Of a stretch of 54,894 bases of DNA, positions 37,373-51,727 are shown in pieces. The DNA lies in IMG/VR virus record IMGVR_UViG_3300024313_000009, positions 1-54,894 of that record; one strand, given 5' to 3'. The notes under the pieces are model-generated. The model was not told the DNA's origin. It saw only the letters and a program-made list of their open reading frames with translations, and did no database searches. Both the position numbers and the translations under genes were made by a program. The stretch is from a virus. The first letter of the stretch is position 1. Each line of letters starts with the position of its first letter.

Positions 37373-37729
37373 ATGAAAACATTTAAAGATTACCTTACTG
37401 AAAGCCATAATGAATCTATAGATATCCAAAATCTATTAAACGAATCTTATGATTTAACAGAAGAGCAAGAAACTGCAATTGATAATGCAGTAGATAGAAT
37501 TATGGAGGAACATAATAACGGAAAAGACTTAGAGGTTATTATGGAGGAAATAATTAATGAAGGTATATTAGGATCTGTTTTAGGTGGTCTTACCGGTTTT
37601 GCTTTAGGTAAATCTGTAGGAAAGGCTATTGCAAAAGTACTAGGTATTCAAAAAGGAGCCTTGTATGATTTATTAACCAGTCGATTAATCGGTGCTGCAT
37701 TAGGAGCAGTATTAGGTAAAAGACTCTAA
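37373..37729 (+). CDS. Small protein with capsid-targeting-like N-terminus and glycine-zipper tail, 118 aa
   Basis: Residues 1-11 are MKTFKDYLTES. T4 internal head protein IPIII begins, as I recall it, MKTYQEFIAEA, so the pattern M-K-T-aromatic-x-acidic-aromatic-I/L-x-E is shared, and L-T-E fits the T4 prohead-protease site (L/I)-x-E. Residues 12-62 are acidic and helical, with further 'I-N-E' and 'L-N-E' tripeptides. Residues 64-118 are a glycine-zipper hydrophobic region (GILGSVLGGLTGFALGKSVG, then LIGAALGAVLGK) able to form membrane helices. A packaged, injected membrane-active protein is a fair hypothesis. A simple membrane protein with a chance leader is the alternative. Confidence 0.55.
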   Translation: MKTFKDYLTESHNESIDIQNLLNESYDLTEEQETAIDNAVDRIMEEHNNGKDLEVIMEEIINEGILGSVLGGLTGFALGKSVGKAIAKVLGIQKGALYDLLTSRLIGAALGAVLGKRL

Positions 37730-37739
37730 TCCATTATAA

Positions 37740-38414
37740 TTGATTTACTCAGGTATAGATTTTTCTCTTAATAGTCCAGGTACATGTACACAGGACCATA
37801 AAGGCAAATACACATTTATTACATTCTTTAATTACGGTAATAGAATATGGGATGAAGAAGGTAGAAAGATACCGAAGTCCTTTTCGGTTCATAAAGAATT
37901 AATGGACGATAAAACAATATTAGGGTTTCCTTATTATAGACAAGTAAAGGATAAGGACTTTTTACTTAGGGAAAGAGAAAAACTCACAGATGGTCAAAAC
38001 ATAGCCGACTTAATTTCAAATATTTTAATAACATTATATGGAACAGAAAACCATAAGATTGCACTAGAAGGTTTTTCGTATGGATCAAAAGGGAATTCAT
38101 TCATTGACATTGTTCAGTATAATACATTCTTAAGAAATGAAATTGTAAATTCTTGGGGTGTAGAAAATATTTCAATTTACCAGCCATCACATGTTAAGAA
38201 ATTAGCAGGTAAAGGTAATGCAAATAAACATTATATGGTTAAAGCATTCCAAGACGATGTTTTTAACGATAAAGATTTAAGGAAAACTAAATTATGGAAA
38301 TGGACTCAAGGTAAAGACTTTACAGAAAAGATCCCTAAACCAATAGATGACCTTGTAGATGCGTACTTTATATTAAATGCAAATAAAGAAAAAGGGTGGT
38401 CATTAAAAACTTAA
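37740..38414 (+). CDS. RuvC-like Holliday-junction nuclease
   Basis: The RNase-H-fold catalytic acids of RuvC-type resolvases are present in order: D7 in YSGIDFSLNSPG, E110 in IALEGFSYG, and D203/D204 with D207 in KPIDDLVDAYFI. The 224-residue length and the K-A-G-K-G-N-A-N-K segment (residues 153-163) before the last acids are typical. Such enzymes cut four-way junctions and branched DNA before packaging, the job of endonuclease VII in T4. The gene appears to start with TTG at 37740, since no in-frame ATG lies between the previous stop and the first conserved strand. It precedes the co-chaperonin and SSB genes. Confidence 0.75.
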   Translation: MIYSGIDFSLNSPGTCTQDHKGKYTFITFFNYGNRIWDEEGRKIPKSFSVHKELMDDKTILGFPYYRQVKDKDFLLREREKLTDGQNIADLISNILITLYGTENHKIALEGFSYGSKGNSFIDIVQYNTFLRNEIVNSWGVENISIYQPSHVKKLAGKGNANKHYMVKAFQDDVFNDKDLRKTKLWKWTQGKDFTEKIPKPIDDLVDAYFILNANKEKGWSLKT

Positions 38415-38520
38415 TACATAGAATACCACTAAATACTTTAATGACTAGTAATTACATACTTCTCTTTCTTTAATTTAGTATATTTTATATATAGAAACCA
38501 GAACTTAGTTTCAGAATATT

Positions 38521-38787
38521 ATGATAAAAGCGATAAAAAATAGAATATTTATTAAAAAAGATGAATTACCAGAAAAAATCGGTAACATATATGTCCCAAA
38601 AACAGAAGGTCAGTATGCACCACCATATTCAGGTACTATCATTTCTGTAGGCGGTGACATAGAAGATCCGGATTATAAAGTAGGATCACGAGTACTATTC
38701 CACGACTTAGCAGGCACAGAGTTTAAATATGATGGCAATACCATATTCAGCATCAGAGAAAATGATGTAACCGCTATTATACAATAA
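38521..38787 (+). CDS. GroES/gp31-like co-chaperonin
   Basis: The 88 residues match Cpn10 size (about 95-110). The fold order is clear: an IKAIKNRIFIKKDE start, an IYVPKTEGQYAPPYSG mobile loop zone (about residues 23-38), then GTIISVGG (39-46), KVGSRVLFHD (53-62), FKYDGNTIFSIRENDV (68-83) and a short end. T4 gp31 replaces host GroES so that GroEL can fold the large capsid protein, and this gene is the likely equivalent. No GroEL gene is visible, so it would use the host's. The 106-base gap before it (38415-38520) contains tattttatatatagaaacc, a variant of the promoter-like motif. Confidence 0.8.
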   Translation: MIKAIKNRIFIKKDELPEKIGNIYVPKTEGQYAPPYSGTIISVGGDIEDPDYKVGSRVLFHDLAGTEFKYDGNTIFSIRENDVTAIIQ

Positions 38788-38792
38788 AAAAG

Positions 38793-38819
38793 TTCTATTT
38801 AGACTGAAACTAAATAGAG
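38793..38819 (+). promoter_or_regulatory. RNA hairpin between the co-chaperonin and SSB genes
   Basis: tctatttag (38794-38802) pairs perfectly with ctaaataga (38810-38818) around a 7-base loop. Base 38793 and base 38819 allow one more T-G pair. No T-tract follows, so it is not a standard terminator. It may be a processing or stability element. Confidence 0.5.
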
Positions 38820-38823
38820 ATAT

Positions 38824-38833
38824 GAATATATAA
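38824..38833 (+). promoter_or_regulatory. Promoter-like AT element for the SSB gene
   Basis: gaatatataa stands five bases after the hairpin and 148 bases before the ATG at 38982, giving this gene the longest leader in the window if transcription starts here. Confidence 0.4.
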
Positions 38834-38981
38834 TAAACAAAGGAACTGATATTATTCAGCGACTTATAAACAGGCATATAACAAGGCAAAGTATATTGGC
38901 AATACCCGGGCAAATTAAAAATAGGCAGAGCTGCGTTATATCCACAATTAATAACAAAGTAAAAATAAAAAGGCAATTAAA
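38834..38981 (+). promoter_or_regulatory. Long 5' leader of the gp32-like gene, possible autoregulatory operator
   Basis: This 148-base stretch has no ORF worth calling and no tRNA fold. It contains atataac (38876-38882) able to pair with gttatat (38935-38941), a central acccgggc patch, and a final unstructured A-rich segment before the ATG. T4 gene 32 represses its own translation through a leader pseudoknot and an unstructured A/U-rich entry site. The layout here is compatible, but not shown to be the same. Confidence 0.4.
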
Positions 38982-39902
38982 ATGGCAAATGAATTCGACA
39001 TTTTCAGTGTAAGCGTCAAGGACCTTGACACTGGAGACAGACCCGCACCAAGTAGCGATCTGTACACACCAAAACCCGACCAGGGAACTGACGGTACTTA
39101 CCGTTCACTAATTAGGTTTCTTCCTAATGTAAAAAACCCACGTAAACCTTTCGTTCGTAAATATGTCTATTGGTTAGAAGATAGAGATGGCAACGGCTTC
39201 TACGTAGATTCACCTTCAACAGTTGGAGAGAAATGTGCAGTACAAGACATGTTCTTTAAACTTAGAAATTCTGAATCTGCTGTAGATAAAAAGATGTCAG
39301 AAGGACTGAAGCGTAGAGAAGTATTTTATGCATTAGTGCAAATCGTAAAAGATCCACAGAACAGAGATTTAGAAGGACAAGTTAAAATCATGAAATTTGG
39401 TTATAAGATTAAAACCAAAATTGATGAGGAATTAAATCCACAATTTGATGAACCTACTCAAGTATTCGATCCGTTTGAAGGAAAGAATTTTGAATTAGTA
39501 ATTTCTAAGAAAGGTGGTTATCCTAACTATGATTCTTGTAAATTTCAAGGAAGTAAATCCGCTATGACGATTAACGAAGAAGCAGTAACTTCTGATGACG
39601 CAGGTAGAACTGCAATTCTTGATTTTATTAAGGATGCACCAGAGTTAGCAAACTTTGATTACCGTCCTTGGAATGATGAACAGCGAAATAAAGTAATGGG
39701 TGTACTTTCTCAATTTAGTAACCCAGGATCTTCTATTGAAACTGTTACTAAAAAGCAAGACGCACCAGAACCAGTAAAAGTAGCAGCCGCTGTATCGGCG
39801 GTAAATGAAGCTGCAGGATCTGCTGCACCAACTGCAACTAAAACTGAAGATTCTTCTAAAGGAGATGATTTCGATGATTTCATTAATGGTTTAGATCTTT
39901 AA
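38982..39902 (+). CDS. gp32: Single-stranded-DNA-binding protein, gp32-like
   Basis: The 306 residues (T4 gp32: 301) show the gp32 order: RSLIRFLPNVKNPRKPF (about 41-57), VKDPQNRDLEGQVKIMKFGY (about 119-138) followed by KIKTKI, and FDPFEGKNFELVISKKGGYP, then NYDSCKF (about 162-188). The C-terminus is Ala-rich and then acidic (DDFDDFINGLDL), the tail through which gp32 contacts polymerase, primase and UvsY. The T4 zinc ligands (His and three Cys) are absent, because the corresponding region has no C-x-x-C. It coats ssDNA during replication, recombination and repair. The gene leads the block with primase, UvsY and UvsW, as expected. Confidence 0.85.
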   Translation: MANEFDIFSVSVKDLDTGDRPAPSSDLYTPKPDQGTDGTYRSLIRFLPNVKNPRKPFVRKYVYWLEDRDGNGFYVDSPSTVGEKCAVQDMFFKLRNSESAVDKKMSEGLKRREVFYALVQIVKDPQNRDLEGQVKIMKFGYKIKTKIDEELNPQFDEPTQVFDPFEGKNFELVISKKGGYPNYDSCKFQGSKSAMTINEEAVTSDDAGRTAILDFIKDAPELANFDYRPWNDEQRNKVMGVLSQFSNPGSSIETVTKKQDAPEPVKVAAAVSAVNEAAGSAAPTATKTEDSSKGDDFDDFINGLDL

Positions 39903-39906
39903 TAGT

Positions 39907-40980
39907 ATGGCAACAGAAGTAATAATATCTTCTGAAATGAAAGCTCGGATCATCGATAAGGTGGTCCGAGTTCTTCATACTAACCATTCTCATCCAGAAA
40001 AAAGAAGATTATTAGAAAGTAAAGAAAGATTAAATTTTGCATGTCCATATTGTGGAGATTCAACAGATAGTCCTAGAAAGAAAAGAGGAAATTTATACTG
40101 GAGCAATTTACAGTTTCATTGTTATAACTGCTCTGCTCATGAAAGTTTAGATGTTTTTCTTAAAGATCATAATGTAAACTTTGAAGGTGAAGATCGTATA
40201 GATGTAATTAATTTTATTAAAGAAAATAGAAAAAACTTTTCTTTAGGAGAAAGTTTAGAATTTCATTTATTTGAAATGGCTAATAAATTAGCATTAACAT
40301 TTGATGAGGTTGCTTTAGGCTTTAATGTGTATCCTATAAATAGTTTAACATACCGAGCATACCCTTATTTAAAAAGTAGATTACTTCATCATAAAACTGA
40401 AAGATTCGGTTATGACCCAAGAAGAAAAGAACTATATGTATTTAATCTTAATTCCAAAGGAAACATTATAGGTTTTCAAGTTAGAGCATTAGATGATAAT
40501 AGCGGTCCTAAATATAAAACATGGAATATAGAAAGAATATATGACAGGCTTAAAAAACCTTTAAATATAACTGAAGAAGAACTAGATTCTTTAAACAAAA
40601 TATCAATGATCTTCGGTATACTAACAACAGATTTGAGTAGACAGTTCACGGTATTTGAAGGTCCTATTGATTCATTCTTTATGTCAAATACCATTGGTCT
40701 TACTGGTGTTAAAAAACAAATATTGGATTTTGATGATATACCTACCGTTAGATATTTCTTTGATAATGATATTGAAGGTAAATCAAAAATGATCCAAAAA
40801 CTAAAAAGAGGTAATACTGTTTTTATGTGGCAAAAGTTTTTAAAGGATTTTAATATTCCTTCAAAAAAGGTAAAGGATTTAAATGACTTAGTTAAGTATG
40901 AATTTAAACATAGAACAGGGTGCTTGCATGAGTTGGATAAATATTTTACAAACAATCATTTAGATCTTATATTTATATGA
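39907..40980 (+). CDS. gp61: DNA primase, gp61-like
   Basis: A zinc ribbon is formed by C46-x-x-C49 and C72-x-x-C75 (ACPYCGD, FHCYNCSA). The Toprim core follows with the E251-G motif in FTVFEGPIDSFF and D286-x-D288 in RYFFDNDIEG. The 357 residues compare with 342 for T4 gp61. It synthesises RNA primers for the lagging strand, in T4 together with the gp41 helicase. No gp41-like helicase is in this window. It begins four bases after gp32 and its stop overlaps the next start (ATGA). The zinc and Toprim motifs make this assignment strong. Confidence 0.85.
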   Translation: MATEVIISSEMKARIIDKVVRVLHTNHSHPEKRRLLESKERLNFACPYCGDSTDSPRKKRGNLYWSNLQFHCYNCSAHESLDVFLKDHNVNFEGEDRIDVINFIKENRKNFSLGESLEFHLFEMANKLALTFDEVALGFNVYPINSLTYRAYPYLKSRLLHHKTERFGYDPRRKELYVFNLNSKGNIIGFQVRALDDNSGPKYKTWNIERIYDRLKKPLNITEEELDSLNKISMIFGILTTDLSRQFTVFEGPIDSFFMSNTIGLTGVKKQILDFDDIPTVRYFFDNDIEGKSKMIQKLKRGNTVFMWQKFLKDFNIPSKKVKDLNDLVKYEFKHRTGCLHELDKYFTNNHLDLIFI

Positions 40981-41192
40981 TAAAAAATTACAACAATTTT
41001 GTGACTGAACAATTTGATGATTTTTATAATGATTTAGCAATCTCTAAAAAGAAGCTTAAATTATTTACTAAATTTAAAAAGATTAAAACTGATGATGTAA
41101 AAACAACCTTTACATTACCGCAACCTAAGAAAAGGTTTCAGCCAAAGATTAAGCAGTACAAAAAGATTAATAACGATAAAGGAATATTTTAA
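40977..41192 (+). CDS. Small basic protein with FVTE leader, 71 aa
   Basis: The start overlaps the primase stop (ATGA), and its stop touches the next start. The N-terminus IKNYNNFVTEQFDDFY carries the recurring F-V-x-E motif, with V-T-E at residues 9-11. The rest is Lys-rich (about 25 percent Lys, with KKLKLFTKFKKIKTDDV). A small basic protein could bind DNA or fill the head. No family is recognised. Confidence 0.6.
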   Translation: MIKNYNNFVTEQFDDFYNDLAISKKKLKLFTKFKKIKTDDVKTTFTLPQPKKRFQPKIKQYKKINNDKGIF

Positions 41193-41641
41193 TGGCATTT
41201 GATGATACACAAATAAAAGAGGCTAATGAACAATTAGAACTTAGATTAGGTTCTGATAGGAATGATTGGAAAGCAAAAATCAAAGATCTTGTTTCTAAGC
41301 TAAAAAACATGAATGAATTAGCAGAGTGCCAAGTAAGAATGCTTTCATACCGGCAAATCTTATTAGACAAAGTAACTGATTTTAAGACCACCATATATAA
41401 AAGGAATGCTACTTGGGACAGGTATTATAAGAACCAATATCGAGAGTATTCAGTTAACTATGATGTTAAACTAACTAATGGCGAAAAGCATCAATTTATA
41501 AAAGCCGATCTGTCTTCTTTAAAAACTCAGATTGACATGTTACAATCACATATAGATTATTACTATGAATGTATTAAGACTTTAGATAACATGGCATTTG
41601 CAATAAGAAACAGAATAAACTTAGATGATAAGGAATTTTAA
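41192..41641 (+). CDS. uvsY: Recombination mediator, UvsY-like
   Basis: The 149 residues are close to T4 UvsY (137). The helical C-terminal half (LKTQIDMLQSHIDYYYECIK, then TLDNMAFAIRNRINLDDKEF) has the UvsY ending 'G/M-F-A-I-x-x-R/K-x'. The middle Y-R-Q/K-rich segment (YKRNATWDRYYKNQYREYSV) fits a DNA-binding region. UvsY loads the UvsX recombinase onto gp32-covered DNA. The gene order primase, small ORF, UvsY, UvsW with one-base overlaps mirrors the uvsY-uvsW neighbourhood in T4. Identity is moderate from sequence, stronger with context. Confidence 0.65.
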   Translation: MAFDDTQIKEANEQLELRLGSDRNDWKAKIKDLVSKLKNMNELAECQVRMLSYRQILLDKVTDFKTTIYKRNATWDRYYKNQYREYSVNYDVKLTNGEKHQFIKADLSSLKTQIDMLQSHIDYYYECIKTLDNMAFAIRNRINLDDKEF

Positions 41642-43143
41642 TGGAACTATCTCTGTCTGAAAATAAAAAGTTTTTAGTAATTGATTCATGTACCGAATTG
41701 GAATATGAACAGTTAAAATCTAGTCTTACTAAGAAAATAGAAGGTTGGCGGTTCCACCCTTTAGTAAAGAAAAAGGTATGGGATGGTAATATTTCGTTTA
41801 TTAAAAGAAATAAAATTCCGGCAGGGTTATGGAAAGAAGTTATAGACATCTGTAAACAATATGATTATCAATTTACACTAAATGGCATAACTGATATTTT
41901 TGATACTTCGATAGATGAAGATATGTTTAGAGGTTGGGTAGATGAATTTTTTGCAAAGTCTGAAATTAAACCTAGAGATTATCAGATTGATGCTGCAATT
42001 AAAATTTTAAAATATAGAAGGTGTTTAGCTGAATTGGCAACGTCTGCAGGTAAAACTTTAATTTCATTTATGGTGGTTGCTTATATGATGGAACAATTAG
42101 GCAAAAAGAAAATCTTAATGATCGTGCCTAATGTAAGTTTAGTAGTTCAGGCGAGTGGAGATTTTGAAGAATATAATAAAGGCAGAGTACCTATTAAGAT
42201 TCAACAAATTTATGCAGGAGTTAAACTAAGAAAGAGTTCTAATATAGTTATAGGTACTTATCAATCATTAACTAAAAAAGACGAGGAATACTTTAGCCAA
42301 TTTGATGCAGTATTTGTAGATGAAACTCATAAAGCAAAAGCAAATTCAATCCAAAAGATAATGGATAAATGTTGGCACTGTGATTATAGATTTGGTTTAA
42401 GTGGTACTATACCTAAAAGAGGAACTGTAAATAGACTTAGTTTAATGTCGGCAATGGGCCCACTAGTAACTCAAGTAAAGGCTGCTCATTTACAGGAAGA
42501 AGGTCATATTGCAAAATGTAAAGTTTTACAGATCCACATGGAATATGCAACCGATGCACAAAAAGAAGCATTCTCATCTCTGTCTAAAAATCCGTATGAT
42601 AGACAAAAGCTATTTAGTTTAGAACAAAACTTTATTAACGAAAGTGAAAAGAGACTAGACTTCGTTTGTCAGGTAATTAAAAAATCAACATCCAACTCAT
42701 TAGTCTTATTTCATAAAATAGCATACGGTGAAAAACTATATCAAAAGCTTAGAACAATAACAGATAAAAAAGTCTATTATGTTGACGGTTCTGTTAAGTC
42801 TGATTTTAGAGAAGAGTTTAAAAAGAGAATGGAAAAGAATGATGATGTTATTATTGTAGCATCATACGGAACATTCTCAACAGGTATTTCAATTAAAAAC
42901 ATTCATAACATTTTCTTTACTGAATCATTTAAATCAGAAGTAATTATCAGACAGTCAATAGGTAGAGGTTTAAGAAAACATGAAGCCAAAGATGTTGTAA
43001 AAATATATGACTTCATTGACGATTTTAGATATAAAGTAGATGATCATGACTGGGTAAATTATATCTATAGACACGGTATGGAAAGAAGAAAAATATACAA
43101 GGAAGAAAAGTTTCCTTTTGAGGTACAAAATGTAAGGTATTAA
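41641..43143 (+). CDS. uvsW: DNA/RNA helicase UvsW-like (SF2)
   Basis: The motifs are in order: ATSAGKT at 133-139 (Walker A), VDETHKAK at 226-233 (DEAH-type box), SGT at 254-256, and QSIGRGLRK near residue 440 (motif VI arginines). The 500 residues match T4 UvsW (503), including the separate N-terminal domain (about 1-90) before the helicase core that starts at KPRDYQIDAA. UvsW unwinds R-loops and branched DNA and switches T4 from origin-driven to recombination-driven replication. The start overlaps the UvsY stop by one base. Confidence 0.9.
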   Translation: MELSLSENKKFLVIDSCTELEYEQLKSSLTKKIEGWRFHPLVKKKVWDGNISFIKRNKIPAGLWKEVIDICKQYDYQFTLNGITDIFDTSIDEDMFRGWVDEFFAKSEIKPRDYQIDAAIKILKYRRCLAELATSAGKTLISFMVVAYMMEQLGKKKILMIVPNVSLVVQASGDFEEYNKGRVPIKIQQIYAGVKLRKSSNIVIGTYQSLTKKDEEYFSQFDAVFVDETHKAKANSIQKIMDKCWHCDYRFGLSGTIPKRGTVNRLSLMSAMGPLVTQVKAAHLQEEGHIAKCKVLQIHMEYATDAQKEAFSSLSKNPYDRQKLFSLEQNFINESEKRLDFVCQVIKKSTSNSLVLFHKIAYGEKLYQKLRTITDKKVYYVDGSVKSDFREEFKKRMEKNDDVIIVASYGTFSTGISIKNIHNIFFTESFKSEVIIRQSIGRGLRKHEAKDVVKIYDFIDDFRYKVDDHDWVNYIYRHGMERRKIYKEEKFPFEVQNVRY

Positions 43144-43169
43144 TATAGAATATCTTTCTCATGAGAGAT

Positions 43170-43180: not shown

Positions 43181-43206
43181 AAAAGAATCAAAAAAAGATA
43201 ATTATA

Positions 43207-44739
43207 ATGAAACCAATTAAAAAGTTTTCACTGATGGCTAAAGCTGATGATTCAATTAATGAATCGGCTGACCCAAATCATGATGCTGTAATGGATCTAG
43301 TTAAAAAGATGGGTTACGAAAGTGTCGAAGAATTAAAGAAAGAAAAAAATCTTTTAACTAAATTAGAAGGTTTATTAAAAGATGTTTCACCAAAGGACGA
43401 TATTTCTGAGGATGAACTTGAAGAAGATAGAGCCGAAGATATAGCTGATGAAGTTAAAAAGAAAGGTGAACCTAAATCATTAGAATCTGAAGAAGATAAA
43501 GATGAAGATAAAGTTGGTACCGATGGTGAAGTTGCTGAAACTGATGAAGTTGAAGAAGACTCTGCAAAAGATATTGAAGATGAAGTATTAGCTAAAGGCG
43601 AACCTAAAGATGTAGAAGATAAGGCAGGTGATAAGGTATCTGATGATCCTGAAATTACCGCTGAGGTTCCTGCTGAAGCTGATGAAGTTGAAGATGAGGA
43701 AGGTGTTGAGGTTGCTGCTGAAGAAGAGGAAACTCCGGCTGCTACAAAAAGAATTATGGCTTTCGAAGATTTCATTAAAGAAAAAGAAGTTACAATAAAT
43801 AAGAATGTCAAATATCACGATGATGATGAAGAGAAAGAAGACTATTCTGTTGTTGCTGCATCTGCCGATGCTATTTCTGAGGATGATGAAGATAAAGGAA
43901 TGGAAGATGAAAAAGAAGGAGATGAGTTAGAAGACAAAGGTGATAAGAAAGTTGATTCTGAAGATGACAAAGAAAAGGCTGACCATTATAAAGGAGCTGT
44001 AAAATCTGATGACTCCGAAATTGATGCATTAAAGAAAGATGCTGAATATGATGAAGAAGAAGAAAAGAAAGATGAATCAAGAATTATGTCTTTTTCAAAT
44101 TTTGTAACTGAATCGTATGATGAAGAAGAAGTAGAAGAAGAAGAAGAAATAGAGGCTGAAGAAGAAGCTGTAGAAGAAGCGGTAGGTGAAGTAATTACTA
44201 AAGTTACCGGTGATGAAATTGCTGATGAAGAAGCTGGTGATGATGGCCTTGCTATTCCTGCAGAAAAAGGCGACGGTTCTGAAACTGCTGCTGGTATTGC
44301 TGGTGATATAATGGATATGGGTAAAGTAAAAGTACAACCTGAATCAAAAGGCGAAGAATTAGTTACTAAAGACCAAAAGATTACAACTGAAGTAAAAGGT
44401 GAAGCTGATGATCTTAAGGATGCTACTGAAGTTCCTGCAAAAATGGGAGATGGTTCTGAATCTGCCGCAGGTATTGCTGGAGACATAATGAATATGGGTA
44501 AAGTAAAAGTTCAGCCTGAAGCAAAAGGTGCTGCATTAGTTGGAGAAGCTAAGATTACAGAAAAAGAAATTACTTCTGCTGATGAATTTAAAGAATATGC
44601 AATGGCAATTCTAAAAGATGCATTCGGAGATGATTTTGATGAAACTAAAGCAACTGAAACTGCTGATGGATTAATTAAGAAGTATGGTGAAGATTACGGC
44701 GCAATGGTCGGAGCTTTACAATCTACTATGGGATCATAA
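43207..44739 (+). CDS. Highly acidic, internally repeated protein (possible head-interior protein), 510 aa
   Basis: Asp and Glu dominate residues 50-390, so this is a disordered polyanion. Three kinds of repeat are visible: D-I-A/E-D-E-V-x-x-K-G-E-P-K (about residues 79-91 and 118-130); IMAFEDFIKEKE (Met184) with IMSFSNFVTESY (Met294); and a 33-residue unit (see the repeat entry). The N-terminus MKPIKKFSLM, then DDSINES, and both internal units carry (I/V)-x-E tripeptides like prohead-protease sites. The C-terminal 55 residues (SADEFKEYAMAILKDAFGDD) are a small helical domain. T4 fills its prohead with acidic core proteins and peptides, and this protein may be of that kind, but no homology to gp22 or gp67 was seen. 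Confidence 0.55.
   Translation: MKPIKKFSLMAKADDSINESADPNHDAVMDLVKKMGYESVEELKKEKNLLTKLEGLLKDVSPKDDISEDELEEDRAEDIADEVKKKGEPKSLESEEDKDEDKVGTDGEVAETDEVEEDSAKDIEDEVLAKGEPKDVEDKAGDKVSDDPEITAEVPAEADEVEDEEGVEVAAEEEETPAATKRIMAFEDFIKEKEVTINKNVKYHDDDEEKEDYSVVAASADAISEDDEDKGMEDEKEGDELEDKGDKKVDSEDDKEKADHYKGAVKSDDSEIDALKKDAEYDEEEEKKDESRIMSFSNFVTESYDEEEVEEEEEIEAEEEAVEEAVGEVITKVTGDEIADEEAGDDGLAIPAEKGDGSETAAGIAGDIMDMGKVKVQPESKGEELVTKDQKITTEVKGEADDLKDATEVPAKMGDGSESAAGIAGDIMNMGKVKVQPEAKGAALVGEAKITEKEITSADEFKEYAMAILKDAFGDDFDETKATETADGLIKKYGEDYGAMVGALQSTMGS
44254..44529 (+). repeat. Two 99-bp direct repeats coding a 33-residue unit
   Basis: 44254-44352 and 44431-44529 encode near-identical 33-residue units (core GDGSETAAGIAGDIMDMG against GDGSESAAGIAGDIMNMG, then KVKVQPE). 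The DNA differs mainly at third codon positions, so the duplication is old enough to have drifted while protein sequence was kept. Confidence 0.9.
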
Positions 44740-44759
44740 TAAAAACAAGAACTAAAGAT

Positions 44760-45194
44760 ATGAGTAATATAAAAAAGTTTGCAGAATTTGTAAATGAATC
44801 ACTTAATGAAGCTGAATTACCATCATGGGTTGAAGGCGGTCCTTATGACTCCCTCAAAGATATGACAGGTAATATTGATCTTGATGGAATGACAGTAGCG
44901 GATATTAATAAAAATTACCAACCAGCTTTAAAATATTTAGGAGTAAAATCTATTGCTGATATGGGATATCTTTCAAGTACTGCTAATGATGATGAATTGT
45001 ATGATATTGTTTCGCCTCAAATGAAAGGTTCCAACCTTCTTGGTAATGATAGAGGGAAAGGAATGGATCCATCACCATACACAGCTGCTTATAAAGGAAT
45101 GCTAGGAGACGTAAAAATAATTATAGTACAAGATATTAATCAAGAAAATAGTTATGCATACGCTGCGGTTGATTCTAGAGGAAACCTTAAATAA
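44760..45194 (+). CDS. Unrecognised 144-aa protein with VNES/LNEA leader
   Basis: The N-terminus MSNIKKFAEFVNESLNEAEL is one of the clearest copies of the recurring leader, with V-N-E and L-N-E tripeptides that would fit cleavage at residue 13 or 17. The remaining mature part is a small alpha/beta domain (LPSWVEGGPYDSLKDMTGNI, then DVKIIIVQDI near the end) without a catalytic motif. It follows the acidic protein by 20 bases and precedes the first ligase-like gene by 8. I do not recognise the domain. Confidence 0.6.
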   Translation: MSNIKKFAEFVNESLNEAELPSWVEGGPYDSLKDMTGNIDLDGMTVADINKNYQPALKYLGVKSIADMGYLSSTANDDELYDIVSPQMKGSNLLGNDRGKGMDPSPYTAAYKGMLGDVKIIIVQDINQENSYAYAAVDSRGNLK

Positions 45195-45202
45195 ACATAA
45201 AC

Positions 45203-46474
45203 ATGAAACATATAAAATTGTTTGAACAATGGCTGGCCGACAAAAGCCAGCCATTTCTTTTTGAAGGAGGTGCCGCTGGTCACATGGCCCATCCATTTGA
45301 CGATAAAGATTTAACCTTTGGTGATTTTAAGGCAATGATAGATGCTGGTCTTAGAGGTGAATTAAACTTTGAAGAAGATGCTACTGAAAAGACCGATGGC
45401 CAAAATGCATTTGCTACTATCCAAGACGGTGAAGTTAAATTTGCAAGAAACAAAACAGAGTTAAAGAATCCAATGACTCTTTCTGAATTTAAGAATAAAT
45501 TTGAAGGGCATCCTAGTAAATTAGTACAAGATACTTTTCAATTTGCTGCACAGGATTTAGCTAGGTTGCTAATGGCTCTTTCTCCAGCTGACCAAGAAAA
45601 ATATTTTAAGAATGGAAAAGACTTTATGAACATGGAGTTAATCTATTCACAAAACCCTAATGTTATTCATTATGATACAGATGTAATTCAATTTCACGGG
45701 ATAAAGGAAACTGATGGTAACGGTAACATTACAGGCACTAATAATAAACCTGCAAAAGAAATTGCAGATATACTTAAAAAGGTACAATCAGATATTGGTA
45801 AAACTTTTAAAATAATTCCACCTAGAGTTATTAAATTACAAAAAGATTTGGATTTTACCACAAACAAGAAAAGATTTATAAACCAAGTTAACGCATTAGA
45901 AAAAAGATACGGTTTAACTGATAGCGATGAAGTTGCTAAATATCACGAAATGTGGTGGAGAGAATTAATTGATAAACAATTCCCTACATTATCTCAAGAT
46001 GTAAAAGAAGGTTTACTTAAGAGATGGGCGTACGGCGATAAGAAGAGTTTAAATATGAGATCTCTTGCTAAACAAATTGGACCTAAAGAAGCTGCACTAG
46101 TTAAAAAGTTTGACAAAGAAGATGTTGCTAAAAAGTATAAAGAAAACATTAGACCTTTTGAAGATCTGTTCTTAGAATTAGGATCTGTGATTCTTAAAAA
46201 CGCATCTGACTTTTTAGCAGCTAATCCATCCGATGAAGCACAAAGGCTAAGAGCTCAAATACAAACAGCAGGAAGTAAAATTAAAAAGACTGGTGGGGCT
46301 GATCAAGTAAGAAAGGTAGAAGCTGAACTAGCAAGGCTTGATAGAATTGGTGGAATAGAATCTATATTTCCAACTGAAGGAATAGTATTTAAATACAAAG
46401 GAAAGATTTATAAACTTACTGGTACATTTGCTGCAATCAATCAATTGTTAGGTATCATTAAGTTCGGTAGGTAA
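45203..46474 (+). CDS. Ligase-fold nucleotidyltransferase-like protein with KTDG motif, 423 aa
   Basis: The five ligase/capping-enzyme motifs can be placed: motif I EKTDGQNAF with K63-T-D-G66; a conserved RNK at 82-84; motif III FMNMELIYSQ with E145; motif IV TEGIVFKY with E392 and K397; motif V YKLTG with K404. These residues adenylylate Lys63 in ATP-dependent DNA and RNA ligases. The spacing between motifs III and IV (about 245 residues) is unusually long and holds a helical insertion. The N-terminus MKHIKLFEQWLADKSQPFLF (then E-G-G) resembles the recurring leader with L-F-E as a possible cleavage site. Substrate (DNA, RNA or protein) is unknown. Downstream lie a terminator and a second ligase-like gene. 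Confidence 0.6.
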   Translation: MKHIKLFEQWLADKSQPFLFEGGAAGHMAHPFDDKDLTFGDFKAMIDAGLRGELNFEEDATEKTDGQNAFATIQDGEVKFARNKTELKNPMTLSEFKNKFEGHPSKLVQDTFQFAAQDLARLLMALSPADQEKYFKNGKDFMNMELIYSQNPNVIHYDTDVIQFHGIKETDGNGNITGTNNKPAKEIADILKKVQSDIGKTFKIIPPRVIKLQKDLDFTTNKKRFINQVNALEKRYGLTDSDEVAKYHEMWWRELIDKQFPTLSQDVKEGLLKRWAYGDKKSLNMRSLAKQIGPKEAALVKKFDKEDVAKKYKENIRPFEDLFLELGSVILKNASDFLAANPSDEAQRLRAQIQTAGSKIKKTGGADQVRKVEAELARLDRIGGIESIFPTEGIVFKYKGKIYKLTGTFAAINQLLGIIKFGR

Positions 46475-46534
46475 ATAGTAGATACACCTATACAGCTCAC
46501 CTGTATTAAGAGATAACATTTACGGTATTTGTAT

Positions 46535-46557
46535 ATACTCTGATTAGTACAGAGTAT
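46535..46557 (+). promoter_or_regulatory. 8-bp perfect hairpin upstream of the terminator
   Basis: atactctg (46535-46542) pairs with cagagtat (46550-46557) around the loop attagta. It stands four bases before the terminator stem, so the two hairpins are stacked in the 166-base gap 46475-46640. Confidence 0.65.
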
Positions 46558-46560
46558 GAT

Positions 46561-46589
46561 AAAGGATAGGTATATACTATCCTTTTTTT
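46561..46589 (+). terminator. Rho-independent terminator after the ligase-like gene
   Basis: aaaggatag (46561-46569) pairs perfectly with ctatccttt (46577-46585) around gtatata, followed at once by further T residues to 46589. This is the only textbook terminator I found in the window. It ends the unit that contains the acidic protein and the first ligase-like gene. Confidence 0.85.
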
Positions 46590-46608
46590 ATATAGCTATT
46601 TAATCAAA

Positions 46609-46619
46609 GAATATATAAA
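46609..46619 (+). promoter_or_regulatory. Late-promoter-like AT element
   Basis: gaatatataaa lies 21 bases before the ATG at 46641 and 20 bases after the terminator, the arrangement expected of a fresh transcription start. Confidence 0.5.
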
Positions 46620-46640
46620 TTGACAATATAAAATAAGCAA

Positions 46641-49600
46641 ATGAAAGAGTTAACTCAAATTTATAAAGATGCAGGCCAACAATTAATAGAAGATCTTTTT
46701 AAGGATTATCTTATAGTATCCGAAAAACTATCAGGTTCTTCATTTTCATTTAAAAAAGACGGTGAAGGAATTACTTTTTATAAAGGTGGAAACCAAAAAC
46801 CTATTAACTTAATTGATAGGACTATAATGGTTTATTATGAAAAGCCTATTAATTTTATAAAATCTGTAACCAGCAAAAATCTTTCTTCCATTCCTGAGAA
46901 TTGGAAGTTCTGTTTTCAATATTTTGTAAATACTAATCCTGGTATTATTACTTATGATAGGCTACCTAAAAATAATTTAGTACTTACTCATATTAAAGTA
47001 ATGACACCAGCTGGTAAAGTTACAAAGGTTATAGAAGATCCTAGGGTAATTAGAGACTGGGCAAACGCACTAGGTGTTACTCCACTACTTCCATTATTTA
47101 AAGGTTACTTAACAGAAGATCAAAAGAAAAAGATTAAAGAATTTTTAGAAACGCCAAAAGAAGATCATGCTGAGATTTTTAGTACTAATTCATTTGCTGA
47201 ATATTTACTTAGAATTCTAAATCCTAATATTCAATCAACGACTTTACAAAACGATCTTAAGAAGCCTATAGAATCTATTGTATTTAAATTTTACAAATCT
47301 GGTACTAAACAAGTTATTGCTGCTAAGTTAATAGATCCTTATACAATTAATTTAATGAAAGAAAAGGAACCTATAGATATGAGAAAGGCTCCTGCTGATA
47401 TTAATGAAATTATTTTATTGGATCTTTTAGCATTTATAGAAGAAAGAGGAATTAAGAAGCATGAGATTTTAGGGGATGGTGAAGATATGAGATACATAGA
47501 ATTAGTTTCAAATATATTTAATGACTATGTAACTAAAAGAGGGAAAGATATTGCAAAGATTGATATTGAAAAAGCTGAGTTTGCTAAAGGTAAAGAATTT
47601 GATTTAAATGTAGAATTAATACCAAGCCAAAGAACTAAAGATATCCTTAACAGTAACCCTAAGCTAAAAGACTTGTTTAAAATAATGTTAGGCTCTTTAA
47701 AAAAGAAAAGAAAGAACACTGGTAATATTATGACGCCATCAGTTGTTGAAGATTTTAATAAAATGGTAGATAAAGTAACCGATGTAATTCAAACAAAAGA
47801 TGATGGTAAATTTAAAACCTTTGATGATTACTTAAAAATCAAATCAACCAATGAATCTCTTTTACCTAACGCTGAAGAACTATTAATTGAAGATAAAGTT
47901 TTAGACTATAACAACTTTATTAATTTAGGTAAAGTTATTGTAGAAGATAATAGAAAGAGTGGTGAAATTTGGAAAACCTCAACAGGGTTTAGAGGACAGG
48001 ATGCTAACGGTGATAGAAAAACATTTAAGTCTAAAGAACAGACTCAATCGTGGATAAAAACCGGAAGAGAGGATGTTGATAAAGAACCTACTGAGAAAAC
48101 TGAAGATTTTGATATTTCTAAAATTGATAAAAAGAAAAGTCCTGCTGCTTTTGATATAGCAAAAGACATAGATAAAATTGAAGATCCAAAACAAAGAGAA
48201 GAGGCTAAATCATTTGTTAAGAATTTAACAGATTATGAAATGGCTGAACCGGGTTCACCTGAAAGAAAAAAGGCTTTAGAGAAATTCTTTGAAGAAGGTG
48301 GTATTAATAGAAATGCGTTAGGAACTGATACAAATAAATTTTATGTAGGCCAATCTGATGAGTATGAAGGTTCAGGTAGAGGTAATAGGTTTAATAAGAA
48401 AACAGGTTTATCATATAGTAAAGCTTTTACTAAAGGCCAAACTGCTAAGATGATGGCTGATGCTGAAGAACTAGGAGTTTTAATTCCTATGCAAAATGGA
48501 ATACCAAGAACTAATGGAAAAAGATTAGCACCTACAAATGTTCATACTGATTCAAAAGGAAAAAAACCTAAAGCAGTTGCTGTAAAGGTTTCTAAAATAG
48601 AACCTAAAGGAAAACCCGGTGATAAAGACTATGATCCAGGTGGTGTTAAGATTGGTGGTGAGAATGGTGTAGAGATGAAAAACACTCCTCCTATGACTGA
48701 AGGCCAAAGGGCTGACCTAAAAGAAAAATTTAAAAAGGCAAAACCTAATGCAACAGAAGAAGAGATTAATAGATATGTTGCTATTAATGAAACTTTTAGA
48801 GAACAAAATAATCAAAAGATTAAAGACATACAAGAAAAAGAATTAACTATAATTCCTATTTTGGACGAAAATGATCAAGAGATAGATGTTTTTACAAAGG
48901 ACGGTCAAAAGAAAGCGGTTAAGGCTGTTTCTAAAAATGTAACAGGTAAGGTTAAAGAAATATTAAATTCTCCACCAAAGATAACACCGTCACCAGATTT
49001 ACAAAAAGCTTTGGATGATTTTGATACAGCTGCATCTGATTTTGCAGATGGTAAAATAACACAAAAAGAATTTAAAAAACAAATGGATGATACTTTATTA
49101 GAAATGATAAATGATCCTCATACTAGGCCAGGTATGCCAGACTTAGTAGAAACATTTGCTATGATGGAAGATTTGAGCGAAGGTAGAGCATCAGTTTCTC
49201 CAGATGCTGCAAACTTTGCATTAGCTGATATAATAACATTTGATCCTGCTGAACTACCACCAAACGCCACACCTGAAGAAGTAAACAAACATATTAATGT
49301 TATGACAACTTCAAGTGGTAGTCGTTCAATTAAATTTGAAGCAGGTGGAGCTAGCCAATCAAGTAATAAAATAGATGCAACAGAATATGCTGACTTTAAT
49401 GATAAGATTAAAGGCGCAGAAATAAAATCAGATTTACAAGATTTAACAAATAAGCAATATGATGACATTTACAATGTACAAGAAGAGCCGCCGTTTAAAA
49501 CATTAGAAGGAGTAACTAATAATGCCAAAAGCTTAGCTAAAAAATATGATGTAGATTTAGAAGGTTTAGATCCACTTAGTGATAAGAAGAGGGCGGTTTA

Positions 49601-50090
49601 TGAAAAGCGTGCTGATAAGAAAATGGTAGGTAATGTTATTAAAGAATATAAAGAAAAAGGTATTGACTTAAGTGAAGATGATGCTAAAGATTTATTAGTT
49701 AGGAGATGGACTGCAATGGATATGAATGGTAAAATAATGCAAGAGGTTAATAACAAACAACAGATGTCTCAATCATTTACCAACCGTTCTTATAATACTG
49801 ATCCTGCTGATGCAGGTACATCTAATCCTGATAATCCAGAAGTTATGAAAGATGAAGATGGTAAGCCAATAGTAATTTTAGACATGGAAGGTAATCCTAA
49901 GTTAAAGAATGGAAAGAAACAGTATAGGAGAAAACAGAAAATGAAAATAAAAGAAACAAATGGAGTTTCTGATATGGCTTGTATGAATTATGCTGATAAC
50001 CCAGGCTTTAGTAAAACAGGAAAGCCTACAAATAAAATGCCAGCCAGAGTTGTTAATTGTAAAGATAGCAATAAGTGGCTAGGTTCTTAA
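46641..50090 (+). CDS. Multidomain protein with N-terminal ligase-fold nucleotidyltransferase-like domain, 1149 aa
   Basis: Residues 1-235 fit a second, divergent ligase fold: motif I VSEKLSGSSF with K29-L-S-G32, a motif III-like WKFCFQYFVNTNPG at 88-101, motif IV ESIVFKFY with E211, and motif V AAKLIDP with K229. The usual motif III Glu appears replaced by Gln93. At about 390-430 lies an FKTFDDYLKIKSTNES, then LLIEDKVLDYNNFINLGK leader-like segment. Residues about 440-475 contain a SGEIWKTSTGFRGQDANGDR motif. The rest is charged, Lys/Glu/Asp-rich and mostly unrecognised, with two small ordered-looking parts near the C-terminus. Large size and helical linkers suggest a virion or head-interior protein with an enzymatic domain. 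Catalytic competence is uncertain. Confidence 0.55.
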   Translation: MKELTQIYKDAGQQLIEDLFKDYLIVSEKLSGSSFSFKKDGEGITFYKGGNQKPINLIDRTIMVYYEKPINFIKSVTSKNLSSIPENWKFCFQYFVNTNPGIITYDRLPKNNLVLTHIKVMTPAGKVTKVIEDPRVIRDWANALGVTPLLPLFKGYLTEDQKKKIKEFLETPKEDHAEIFSTNSFAEYLLRILNPNIQSTTLQNDLKKPIESIVFKFYKSGTKQVIAAKLIDPYTINLMKEKEPIDMRKAPADINEIILLDLLAFIEERGIKKHEILGDGEDMRYIELVSNIFNDYVTKRGKDIAKIDIEKAEFAKGKEFDLNVELIPSQRTKDILNSNPKLKDLFKIMLGSLKKKRKNTGNIMTPSVVEDFNKMVDKVTDVIQTKDDGKFKTFDDYLKIKSTNESLLPNAEELLIEDKVLDYNNFINLGKVIVEDNRKSGEIWKTSTGFRGQDANGDRKTFKSKEQTQSWIKTGREDVDKEPTEKTEDFDISKIDKKKSPAAFDIAKDIDKIEDPKQREEAKSFVKNLTDYEMAEPGSPERKKALEKFFEEGGINRNALGTDTNKFYVGQSDEYEGSGRGNRFNKKTGLSYSKAFTKGQTAKMMADAEELGVLIPMQNGIPRTNGKRLAPTNVHTDSKGKKPKAVAVKVSKIEPKGKPGDKDYDPGGVKIGGENGVEMKNTPPMTEGQRADLKEKFKKAKPNATEEEINRYVAINETFREQNNQKIKDIQEKELTIIPILDENDQEIDVFTKDGQKKAVKAVSKNVTGKVKEILNSPPKITPSPDLQKALDDFDTAASDFADGKITQKEFKKQMDDTLLEMINDPHTRPGMPDLVETFAMMEDLSEGRASVSPDAANFALADIITFDPAELPPNATPEEVNKHINVMTTSSGSRSIKFEAGGASQSSNKIDATEYADFNDKIKGAEIKSDLQDLTNKQYDDIYNVQEEPPFKTLEGVTNNAKSLAKKYDVDLEGLDPLSDKKRAVYEKRADKKMVGNVIKEYKEKGIDLSEDDAKDLLVRRWTAMDMNGKIMQEVNNKQQMSQSFTNRSYNTDPADAGTSNPDNPEVMKDEDGKPIVILDMEGNPKLKNGKKQYRRKQKMKIKETNGVSDMACMNYADNPGFSKTGKPTNKMPARVVNCKDSNKWLGS

Positions 50091-50106
50091 TATTAATTTA
50101 ATAAGA

Positions 50107-50126
50107 GTGAATAAATAAAAAAAGTG
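50107..50126 (+). promoter_or_regulatory. AT-rich late-promoter-like element (20-mer repeated at 25637)
   Basis: gtgaataaataaaaaaagtg is identical to 25637-25656. Its last three bases form the GTG at 50124, which could be read as a start two codons before the ATG. Because this GTG belongs to a repeated non-coding element, the ATG at 50130 is preferred. Confidence 0.45.
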
Positions 50127-50129
50127 TAC

Positions 50130-51500
50130 ATGGATAATCTAAAAAATATACAAGATTTTATAACAGAAAAAAGAGTTACTGTTAAGAGGAGATATACTGA
50201 AAAGCATCCAGCTAAAAATGTATCTACTGCTGCCAGGGTTCGTTCTGCTATTTTAGATGCTGTTGCTGATGGACATTTAACTGAAGATGAGGTTAACAAT
50301 ATCTTATCTGAAATAAAGGCTCACAAAAGATGGCTTAAAAGAAATGTAGGATTATTTAATATCAGTGAAGATGAGACTGGGATTAAGAGATATTCCTTAT
50401 CTCCTTATGGTCATAGAGTAAGAACTGCAACTGCTCCACTTAATGAAGCTTTAAAAGTTCCTCATAAAGAACAAGGTAAGAAAAAGGTTAATATGTTTGT
50501 TGGTAGATTCCAACCTTTTACATTAGGTCATGTTAAAGTATTTGAAAAAATGTATAAAGAAAATGGAAAACCTGTAGTTGTATTTTTAGTTAGAGGAAAA
50601 AACAACGATCCTGAGAAAAGACCGTTTGATGAAGAAATGCAACAAGCAATGTTTGCTAAGATGGCAAAACAATATCCATTTTTAGAAACTGCTATTGTAG
50701 TTCCTAATGGTTCAATTGACACGATGTTTGCAGCAGCAAGGCCAGCATATGAACCTGTGATGTGGGGATATGGAACGGATAGAAAAAAATCATACGGTGC
50801 AATGATTGACAAACAATCATACCGAGATCAATTAGGAGTAGATCCTGATTTTAAAGGTTTTGAGATTTTTAGAACTGATGATAACATTTCAGCATCTAAA
50901 GTTCGTAATGCATTAAAGATAGATGATGAAAAGACTTTTAAGAAAATGACTCCTAAAAGCATACATAGTTTTTATAAACCATTACAAAATATATTAGAAC
51001 CAATAAAAGAAAATAACAATATGAAAAATTTAAAATCACTAACAAGTTTTAGCATTGACGAATCTTTGAATGAAGGTAAAAAAGCTAAAGCAAAAAACCC
51101 TAATAAAGTAAACACTATAGATGTTGATTTATCTGGAGACGATTCAGATATAATGGATGCAATTAAATCATTTAATCTAAAGGTTAAATCTAACGGAGCC
51201 AATAAAGGAACTGGGTATGATATGACAGGTAAAAATAAAGATATTCTTGATTATTTACAAAGTGACTATTATGCATTAGATGCTAGAGATATTGAGGATA
51301 TGTTTCCAGAATTATTAGAAGGTGAAATCAATGAAGAGTATATTGAATTAATGCCTGGGATGGAAGAAGGGTTAGAACAAATAGTAGAAGGTTGGATAGA
51401 ATGGAAAGGCGGCCCTGCAACAGAAAAGACTGACATTGCTCCAGCAAGAAAAGAATTATTAAACTTTTGTACAACTTATTTAAAAAAGAATATTAAGTAA
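50130..51500 (+). CDS. NMN-adenylyltransferase-like nucleotidyltransferase with leader peptide and C-terminal extension
   Basis: From the ATG at 50130 the protein has 456 residues. The HIGH-superfamily signature GRFQPFTLGH is at 125-134 (Thr instead of the first His, as often in phage versions). The second signature ISASKVRNAL is near 252-261. These residues bind the nucleotide and catalyse transfer of AMP to NMN or a similar phosphate ester. The N-terminus MDNLKNIQDFITEKRV carries the recurring leader with I-T-E. About residues 15-110 are basic and helical. At Met298 an internal MKNLKSLTSFSIDESLNEG unit looks like the leader of another gene fused in frame; 159 residues follow that I do not recognise. 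It may rebuild NAD in infected cells, but substrate specificity is inferred. Confidence 0.7.
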   Translation: MDNLKNIQDFITEKRVTVKRRYTEKHPAKNVSTAARVRSAILDAVADGHLTEDEVNNILSEIKAHKRWLKRNVGLFNISEDETGIKRYSLSPYGHRVRTATAPLNEALKVPHKEQGKKKVNMFVGRFQPFTLGHVKVFEKMYKENGKPVVVFLVRGKNNDPEKRPFDEEMQQAMFAKMAKQYPFLETAIVVPNGSIDTMFAAARPAYEPVMWGYGTDRKKSYGAMIDKQSYRDQLGVDPDFKGFEIFRTDDNISASKVRNALKIDDEKTFKKMTPKSIHSFYKPLQNILEPIKENNNMKNLKSLTSFSIDESLNEGKKAKAKNPNKVNTIDVDLSGDDSDIMDAIKSFNLKVKSNGANKGTGYDMTGKNKDILDYLQSDYYALDARDIEDMFPELLEGEINEEYIELMPGMEEGLEQIVEGWIEWKGGPATEKTDIAPARKELLNFCTTYLKKNIK

Positions 51501-51727
51501 TGTCTAAAGACGTAAAGGAAAATGAAGCAGGTACTGTTGGCCTAAATCCTAATATGAATGTACAGGGCATGGGAGCAGTTGAGCTTCCTGGCGATCCTGG
51601 TTCTGCAAATTCTTTTGCTACACAAAAGGTTGGCAGTGGTGATGATCCTGAAGGAAAAAAGAAAAAGAAAAAGAAAATGTTACTTCTATCATTTGATAAG
51701 TACATGGAACTTTTAAAATCAAAATAA
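51500..51727 (+). CDS. Small Gly/Lys-rich protein with SFDKYMEL end, 75 aa
   Basis: The ATG overlaps the previous stop by one base (TAATG), so translation is coupled. Residues 1-50 are Gly/Pro/Asn/Asp-rich and probably disordered. Residues about 54-60 are seven consecutive lysines. The end MLLLSFDKYMELLKSK has the aromatic and hydrophobic spacing of the recurring F-x-x-F/Y leader, now at the C-terminus. I do not recognise a family. A small packaged or scaffold peptide is one possibility. Confidence 0.6.
   Translation: MSKDVKENEAGTVGLNPNMNVQGMGAVELPGDPGSANSFATQKVGSGDDPEGKKKKKKKMLLLSFDKYMELLKSK

Follow-up and report, generated by a model that had tools for sequence, protein, structure and literature searches.

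A recurring leader peptide in a phage genome fragment

Why should proteins with unrelated bodies, predicted enzymes among them, carry nearly the same short peptide, and what would it do for the phage? This question is raised by the IMG/VR virus record IMGVR_UViG_3300024313_000009, a linear fragment of 54,894 bases, which was analyzed over its whole length and is called the window in the following; its genes are named after their first position, and all features described lie on the plus strand. A first-pass annotation had proposed that a peptide resembling the capsid-targeting peptide of phage T4 recurs there on up to eight proteins, including enzymes, and that these proteins are packaged in the head, trimmed and injected with the DNA. 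All peptides quoted in it are indeed present at their places, and the sequences confirm that a real T4-type capsid-targeting peptide occurs in the window. It very probably acts as a leader that docks its protein on the scaffold and is cut by the S77 prohead protease, the cargo being packaged and injected.

According to the available part of the source, residues 4 and 7 of the leader of T4 internal protein IPIII direct targeting and residues 8 and 10 processing, and Asp at position 10 stops processing but not targeting (PMC9026906). Because these positions are among the best conserved here, we assign the leader to the T4 type. The solid tally comprises five N-terminal copies (on 37373, 40977, 44760, 45203 and 50130) and, spread over three proteins, four copies that are internal or terminal. 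The spacing of IPIII (4, 7, 8, 10) is kept exactly in MKTFKDYLTE (37373–37402), the start of a 118-aa protein (37373–37729) with a glycine-zipper-like C-terminal half; it is offset by one to three residues in 40977, 44760 and 50130, and 45203 has Asp for Glu. The leader MIKNYNNFVTE (40977–41009) precedes a 71-aa protein (40977–41192), and MSNIKKFAEFVNE (44760–44798) starts protein 44760–45194, which occupies an insertion slot upstream of 45203. The two enzymes start with MKHIKLFEQWLAD (45203–45241, Asp at the cut position), which belongs to a predicted RNA-ligase-fold protein, and with MDNLKNIQDFITE (50130–50168, with Ile or Leu opening the motif), which belongs to a cytidylyltransferase-family protein (50130–51500).

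The other copies comprise MAFEDFIKE from Met184 (43756–43782) and MSFSNFVTE from Met294 (44086–44112) of the acidic 510-aa protein 43207 (43207–44739), one copy from Met298 of 50130 (51021–51074) and a C-terminal one in 51500. The initial count of eight thus shrinks to five N-terminal carriers, with 43207, 51500 and the second half of 50130 contributing internal or terminal copies. The start of 43207 (SINES), which had been taken for a leader, does not match the motif. For the enzymes, the claim stands for 45203 and 50130 and falls for 46641, which was rejected as a leader protein: its N-terminus is folded, its strict match at residue 153 lies inside the fold, and FDDYLKIKSTNES has no [ILV]-x-E.

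Viewed within the window only, the enrichment of the leader is only moderately significant. The loose motif [FYI]xx[FYW][ILVM]x[ED] was present in the first 25 residues of 5/44 proteins vs. 0.54 expected (5 being the maximum in 2,000 shuffles) and occurred 17 times over the whole proteins vs. 8.6 expected. The strict T4-derived motif [FY]xx[FYW][ILVM]xE was found in the first 20 residues of 3/48 open reading frames (ORFs), compared with 0.35 expected from its internal rate (p 0.0055) and 0.20 expected from shuffling; ORFs were called by a simple script, and some start positions may be wrong. Because the position-specific scoring matrix (PSSM) used for leaders was trained on 15 leaders from the genomes which it then scored, the T4-derived expression represents the independent test.

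What settles the reality of the leader beyond these window statistics is its conservation among orthologs. The leader of 37373 was matched in 91 loci or records, and 54 distinct orthologs kept K2, T3, F4, Y7, L8 and E10 in 96, 100, 98, 91, 74 and 93% of the cases, the 12 residues after the leader averaging 41% conservation. In 32 orthologs of 40977, the four key positions were kept at 94, 100, 94 and 97%, and in 20 orthologs of 50130, F and E were kept at 100%, the first motif position being Ile or Leu in those seen. In 45203 and 50130, the leader taken as a whole is less conserved than the body (0.61 and 0.65 vs. 0.73). The internal copies recur as well: of 76 distinct proteins matched by 43207, we used the 35 that start with MK[PSR]IK, and 34 of these contain two internal strict motifs and one contains a single one, compared with 0.025 per shuffled protein. 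Among the 41 distant matches left out, which mostly cover only the last 65 residues, 15 have at least one strict motif and 26 have none. By its sequence, 43207 appears to be a scaffold-like or multi-cut protein. The domain after Met298 of 50130 occurs on its own, behind a full leader, in the loci L165, L149 and L160, and on this sequence evidence the copy inside 50130 is the start of a second, fused protein. The motif also proved not to be general: scrambling the codons of the leader DNA pattern left no match in IMG/VR vs. at least 120 for the real pattern, and four phages without S77 show no clear motif excess. The evidence for the leader at this level is strong.

One leader before many bodies

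We assembled a leader collection of 168 loci and records (163 loci, the window and the long relatives G001–G004), which was selected by motif and partly by the leader DNA pattern. Its 384 leader proteins fall into 137 body clusters without any BLAST link between them. The consensus over 136 of the 137 representatives (a minus-strand ORF of L070, probably false, was dropped) reads MKHIKLFExFxNE, with almost no consensus behind it, the motif being part of the selection. Pfam recognized 15 families with one member each and left most representatives unmatched; the families include Tad3 (4.8e-22), DUF5824, phage lysozyme, zeta toxin, PAP2, cytidylyltransferase, Acb1, 2'-5' RNA ligase and ATP-grasp. 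As many as 13 leader proteins occur in the single record G002, and ten of its leader genes are 69% identical over their first 39 bases and only 30% over the next 60. The slot upstream of 45203 gives the same picture: the 43207-type gene adjoins directly in 59/80 loci, and the other 21 contain an inserted gene, with six different bodies and a leader on 21/21, taking the best inner start within 60 residues. Judged from these comparisons, the leader is independent of the body that it precedes.

Prohead protease, scaffold repeats and head genes

The prohead protease to which the trimming had been ascribed is absent from the fragment and present in long relatives. S77 was detected in 4/12 long relatives, in 18/43 further leader-bearing records, including 12 of the 15 with at least 100 kb, and in 7/11 public records, those without S77 being MaF61, T5, SPO1 and crAss001. 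The survey covered 50 of at least 120 pattern loci (43 records), favoured long contigs and contains a few near-duplicates. In G019, G023 and G025, which look near-identical, a second and shorter S77 match (132-aa frame, E 1.7e-8) lies beside the main protease and is possibly a protease paralog.

Of 18 head regions, 16 were parsed (L421, L393 and L399 were left out of the parsed head regions and Acb1-like loci), some of them near-duplicates, and all 16 show the order portal, small gene and protease-scaffold. The gene between portal and protease starts with a leader in 8/16 regions, and in L384 a canonical leader is found at an inner start; L384 and L391 also contain a leader-bearing gene between the protease and capsid genes. 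The capsid proteins of relatives carry LYE|D in 14/14 cases, usually at residue 44 (a non-capsid ORF of L389, mis-tagged as capsid, was excluded), and that of G001 has, by sequence, an LNE|S cut site. Protease and scaffold form one open frame in G001–G004 and L384–L398 (about 570–750 aa where complete); T4 encodes gp21 and gp22 separately. The strict heptad occurs three to seven times in each of 18/18 protease-scaffold proteins vs. 0.06–0.15 expected, mostly as Y-x-x-Y-[LIV]-x-E; these proteins are those of G001–G004 and of 14 head regions, some being near-duplicates. The heptads are often 14 residues apart; the G001 protein, for instance, has them at residues 313, 327, 341 and 355. A possible S77 site closes each unit. 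Because the scaffold part repeats the core heptad of the leader, the tag corresponds to one scaffold unit in this clade. Elsewhere, pT24 has one strict heptad, and the protease of Mel-JY01 has none.

The leader register in other phages

Scanning for the exact T4 register recovered four ORFs in T4 itself vs. 0.32 expected: gene 61.1 and three which we take to be IPII, IPIII and gp24. The pattern was widened to Leu and Ile after the head-region results had been seen, and in this form it matched eight ORFs of pT24 vs. 0.34 expected and five of Mel-JY01 vs. 0.18. In G063, with 200 of 287 kb covered, 7/281 ORFs have the exact register with Leu or a similar residue for the first aromatic vs. 0.38 expected. 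Two of the G063 proteins, the Acb1-like one and one of 1615 aa in which a GRFQPFHKGH stretch is visible by eye, start in the exact register with Leu for the first aromatic. No match was found in MaF61, SPO1, crAss001 and PTm1, and one each in PAU and T5. PAU and PTm1 thus give no support to the idea of a leader universal to T4-like heads, which we dropped. Leader proteins of pT24 (132904–133521) and Mel-JY01 (60276–62718) contain YHGT- or WHLTT-like stretches; these presumably resemble ADP-ribosyltransferase motifs, and the proteins may be counterparts of T4 Alt.

Predicted enzymes with and without a leader

The protein 45203 (45203–46474) contains KTDG at residues 63–66 and EGIVFKY from residue 392, and E62, K63, T64, D65, G66, E392, G393 and F396 are invariant in 29 sequences; we take KxDG and EGxVF to be ligase motifs I and IV. 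Its predicted model has a mean predicted local distance difference test score (pLDDT) of 88.6 and is ordered from about residue 27, with residues 1–26, i.e., the leader and the linker to LFE|GG, below 50. The top 13 rows of the fold search are all RNA or tRNA ligases, several of them one protein (Z 9.3 to 8.0, 176–203 residues, root-mean-square deviation (rmsd) 3.8–5.0), with Z values barely above the 7–8 that the tool typically gives without a clear match; the best E value of Foldseek is only 5e-3. Because the Z values are just above the no-match range, the assignment leans on the motifs, and we predict a fold of the RNA ligase superfamily. A second conserved [LIV]-x-E site, LFE|GG (45257–45265), lies just before the folded domain, and [LIV]xE directly before GGA is present in 67/68 distinct full-length orthologs. 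Among 50 distinct N-termini, the leader itself has E at the cut position in 27 and D in 18. Because Asp at this position blocks cutting in T4, cutting of 45203 would need the LFE|GG site, which is its likely cut site by sequence; the conservation of this site could instead reflect the enzyme itself.

The 1149-aa protein 46641 (46641–50090) has no supported leader and starts with a domain for which an RNA-ligase fold is likewise predicted (residues 1 to about 240 matched): the model of residues 1–430 gave Z 11.2 over 184 residues with rmsd 3.5, and Foldseek matched T4 Rnl2 with E 2.7e-7. Because a profile comparison (hhalign) of 45203 and 46641 yielded a probability of 0.5%, the two share the fold only. 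PDB sequence-profile searches with 45203 and 46641 found no ligase.

In 50130, the nucleotidyltransferase signature GRFQPFTLGH (50493–50531) lies within a match to the cytidylyltransferase family PF01467 (residues 122–192, E 2.8e-7). Nicotinamide mononucleotide adenylyltransferase was considered for 50130 and dropped, as the PDB sequence search gave no match; a stand-alone enzyme of this type in L210 weakly matched four chains (MJ0541 and three phosphopantetheine adenylyltransferases, E 0.0014–0.0053). In Mel-JY01, a protein annotated as cytidylyltransferase-like contains a 45203-like domain, and in one other clade a 46641-like and a cytidylyltransferase domain are fused in a single protein. 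Because of these fusions, 45203, 46641 and the cytidylyltransferase probably work together; our guess at their role would be immediate RNA or nucleotide repair after host attack.

Anti-defence proteins in relatives

The anti-Thoeris family Tad3 (PF25185) scored above the curated cut-off in 6/46 leader-bearing records, with a leader on five of the six homologs, one of them with Asp. A wider Tad3 search found the leader in 7/9 records (one with Asp), the leader stretch being among the query patterns and five of the nine records already known. The Acb1-like phosphoesterase family (PF23474) was matched in 16/46 records, 11 of them above the cut-off; the L177 protein scored 28.5 vs. a cut-off of 27, and equally well as a 2'-5' RNA ligase. 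The leaders of 12 of these 16 homologs reach a PSSM score of at least 15, three being near-duplicates. After trimming the leader from the query, we obtained 54 Acb1-like loci (53 parsed), and all 15 best ones have a leader. Another 21 are short versions which start at or near the domain and have no leader, and the three tested records of this group have S77. Among the remaining 18, L427 starts nearly canonically, several have Leu versions and one is unparsed. Because leader presence varies in this way, the tag is optional and lineage-bound. In the large phages L417, L422, L424 and L432, the Acb1-like proteins show the leader register in a Leu form, their start reading M-[IL]-[KR]-L-x-[DN]-L-[IL]-x-E. 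A candidate second leader type (LNEQ..KIK..MG) was rejected: only 1/258 ORFs of G058 has it, the Acb1-like protein itself. Among the papers listed, no title or abstract opening described packaged anti-CBASS or anti-Thoeris proteins (CBASS, cyclic oligonucleotide-based antiphage signalling system), and a search combining "Tad3" and "Thoeris" had no match.

A capsid-arm protein with a terminal leader remnant

The 75-aa protein 51500 (51500–51727) consists of a copy of the capsid N-arm (51542–51643), seven lysines (51656–51676) and a C-terminal leader remnant (51680–51715). Its residues 4–50 are 57% identical over 47 residues to the mature capsid N-arm of G001 (E 1e-12). In many relatives, the leader stretch is followed by a payload, and a further domain (MPAxSKAQRR...) stands in front. 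Such arm-like small proteins occur in the window, in L001–L080 downstream of the cytidylyltransferase, in T4 as gene 61.1 and in PTm1 (216794–217627); all contain a copy of the capsid N-arm, and most add a Lys-rich part and a leader in varying order. When the capsid arm was compared with the other ORFs of its own genome in T4, PTm1, G003, G002 and MA9V-1 (score vs. the maximum of 20 shuffles), the best one was arm-like in T4 (gene 61.1, 69 vs. 47), PTm1 (108 vs. 51) and G003 (62 vs. 47), the copy was marginal in G002 (49 vs. 48), and none was found in MA9V-1. Because four of the 40 listed matches of 61.1 are labelled as major capsid domain-containing protein (two) or major capsid protein (two), the resemblance has already been seen by annotation; our literature search found no stated function for gene 61.1 or the arm-like protein. 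As a guess, the arm protein might line the capsid-arm sites or act as a decoy for them, its tail binding DNA. T4 gene 61.1 is like 51500 in having the same three modules (leader, capsid-arm-like piece and Lys-rich part) and differs in their order, which is leader-arm-Lys in T4 and arm-Lys-leader, with or without payload, in 51500 and its relatives. A 61-aa protein of pT24 (71192–71377) with a leader, a GMGS...TGSD stretch and a poly-Lys end looks like a counterpart of T4 61.1.

Genomic context and lineage of the window

The window forms the whole IMG/VR record and further contains baseplate and tail genes, a RuvC-like gene and a gp32-type single-strand-binding protein (PF08804, E 8e-20). Both contig ends (1–346 and 53973–54894) lie in fibre-like genes with collagen-like GPQGP repeats, which are the probable cause of the assembly break. 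G001 shares the gene order of the window and is 84% identical at 45203. Its capsid protein matched 104 phage records, of which 65 are Synechococcus phages with weaker matches; the best-scoring ones mostly have hosts among the Bacteroidota (Prevotella, Tenacibaculum, Chryseobacterium and Flavobacterium), besides Sphingomonas phage PAU and uncultured phages. The host of the window phage is presumably one of the Bacteroidota.

Proposed mechanism and alternative explanations

From the motif, its conservation and independence of the body, the scaffold repeats, the genetic link to protease and head genes and the enzyme folds predicted from sequences and models, we infer docking, cutting, packaging and injection, and a role for each cargo. 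The two aromatic residues of the leader (i, i+3) would dock the protein on the prohead core, the leader probably posing as one scaffold repeat, and during head maturation S77 would cut at [ILV]-x-E not only in the cargo but also in scaffold and capsid protein. Once freed, the cargo would stay in the head and enter the host together with the DNA. The leader would be a modular tag on core- or scaffold-like proteins (43207 and the gene before the protease), small proteins and enzymes (45203 and 50130), and its wide use in the clade would be explained if cargo enters the core by mimicking one unit of the scaffold. Because relatives tag Tad3 and Acb1-like families, a large share of the cargo probably targets the host ahead of phage gene expression.

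Several observations weigh against this reading. S77 was not found within the window, which is a fragment. PAU and PTm1 have S77, yet show no motif excess, some Acb1-like and Tad3 homologs in S77-bearing phages have no leader, and the strict expression alone gives four matches in T4 vs. 1.54 expected (p 0.07). The motif of 45203 ends in D in 18/50 distinct N-termini, in 7/16 head regions the gene preceding the protease shows the aromatic pair and no clean [ILV]-x-E, and downstream of 45203 another gene occurs in 20/71 loci, with a leader on only 5/20. The scaffold heptads, finally, are missing in T4 gp21 and the next ORF, which we take to be gp22, as well as in PTm1, PAU (two ORFs) and MA9V-1; because of this, the scaffold-repeat part of the mechanism is clade-specific.

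The leader could instead be a core-binding element only, which recruits proteins to the scaffold, many of them acting there or being degraded rather than injected. This would fit its presence on the gene before the protease, inside the acidic 43207 and as repeats in the scaffold, and the available part of one source describes T4 gp22, gp67 and gp68 as cut to fragments (PMC5694885). However, Tad3, Acb1-like proteins, a zeta-toxin-like kinase and lysozyme are implausible as degraded scaffold, and T4 IP1-3, which have such a leader, are injected inhibitors as far as the accessible text of the source goes (PMC12373910), which makes this alternative unlikely. That the leader addresses another late structure, such as the tail or a membrane assembly site, or a different protease, its likeness to T4 being convergent, is very improbable: the window genes do adjoin baseplate and tail genes, but the spacing and the [ILV]-x-E are as in T4 head proteins, the heptad also occurs in the scaffold, and L384 and L391 have leader genes between those for protease and capsid. 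We give slightly less credence still to common descent only, by which the leader would be a recombination joint or a duplicated gene start without targeting function. The steep fall in identity behind the leader-gene starts of G002 (69% vs. 30%) agrees with such an origin, conserved starts could aid gene shuffling, and three of the five Mel-JY01 matches look like paralogs; against it, conservation peaks at the motif positions, and the lineages of pT24, Mel-JY01 and G063 put different residues in the same register.

Beyond the targeting leader itself, we find it moderately probable that T4-like heads use the leader as a general delivery code, which works by scaffold imitation, carries swapped host-directed cargo and pre-loads immune suppression; lineages would keep the register with their own residues and exchange a large set of proteins behind it, among them CBASS or Thoeris inhibitors and RNA- or nucleotide-processing enzymes. 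The usual view is that CBASS and Thoeris inhibitors are made after infection starts. Should Tad3- and Acb1-like proteins enter together with the DNA, both systems could be blocked before any phage transcription. To our knowledge, RNA-ligase-fold enzymes, if packaged, would add a new class to the virion enzymes of T4-like phages. That scaffold and leader share a heptad would account for the loading of unrelated cargo. With the leader as a simple criterion, injected proteins can be sought in uncultured T4-like phages, whose genes mostly lack annotation, and more than 100 candidates are already available; if the leader is a general delivery code, a scan would list the injected proteins of such phages directly.

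Comparison with known systems

The closest likeness is to T4 IPI–IPIII, which have a short N-terminal peptide of the same spacing before unrelated bodies, removed in T4 by the prohead protease (PMC9026906, available part). According to accessible excerpts, the injected internal proteins of T-even phages share a leader and at least ten kinds are reported, and IP1-3 of T4 differ in the GmrSD enzyme that they block (PMC12373910; PMC9391042). These T4 proteins are injected anti-restriction proteins (PMC12373910, in the same excerpts). T4 has three internal proteins and its relatives at least ten kinds (PMC12373910, as excerpted), compared with 13 in G002 and 137 clusters here. Unlike in T4, a shift of the leader by three residues is common (MKHIKLFEEFINE), the scaffold repeats the leader's core, and the bodies include enzymes and anti-CBASS and anti-Thoeris families. 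The ADP-ribosyltransferase Alt of T4 is alike in being an enzyme. In the text available, it is packaged into heads, and trimming takes place after ITE (PMC5694885). It differs from the RNA-ligase-fold and cytidylyltransferase-family enzymes described here in its propeptide of six residues and its additional C-terminal trimming. In phages SPN3US and phiKZ, many head proteins are likewise processed after Glu and injected, but their propeptides are mostly long and cut at A-x-E or S-x-E, and the accessible part of the source describes no widely shared short leader (PMC5694885). The leader system is thus an extension of the T-even internal proteins and not a separate category; to judge from the sequences, it extends them to other lineages, more bodies, enzymes, anti-CBASS and anti-Thoeris families and a scaffold with the same heptad.

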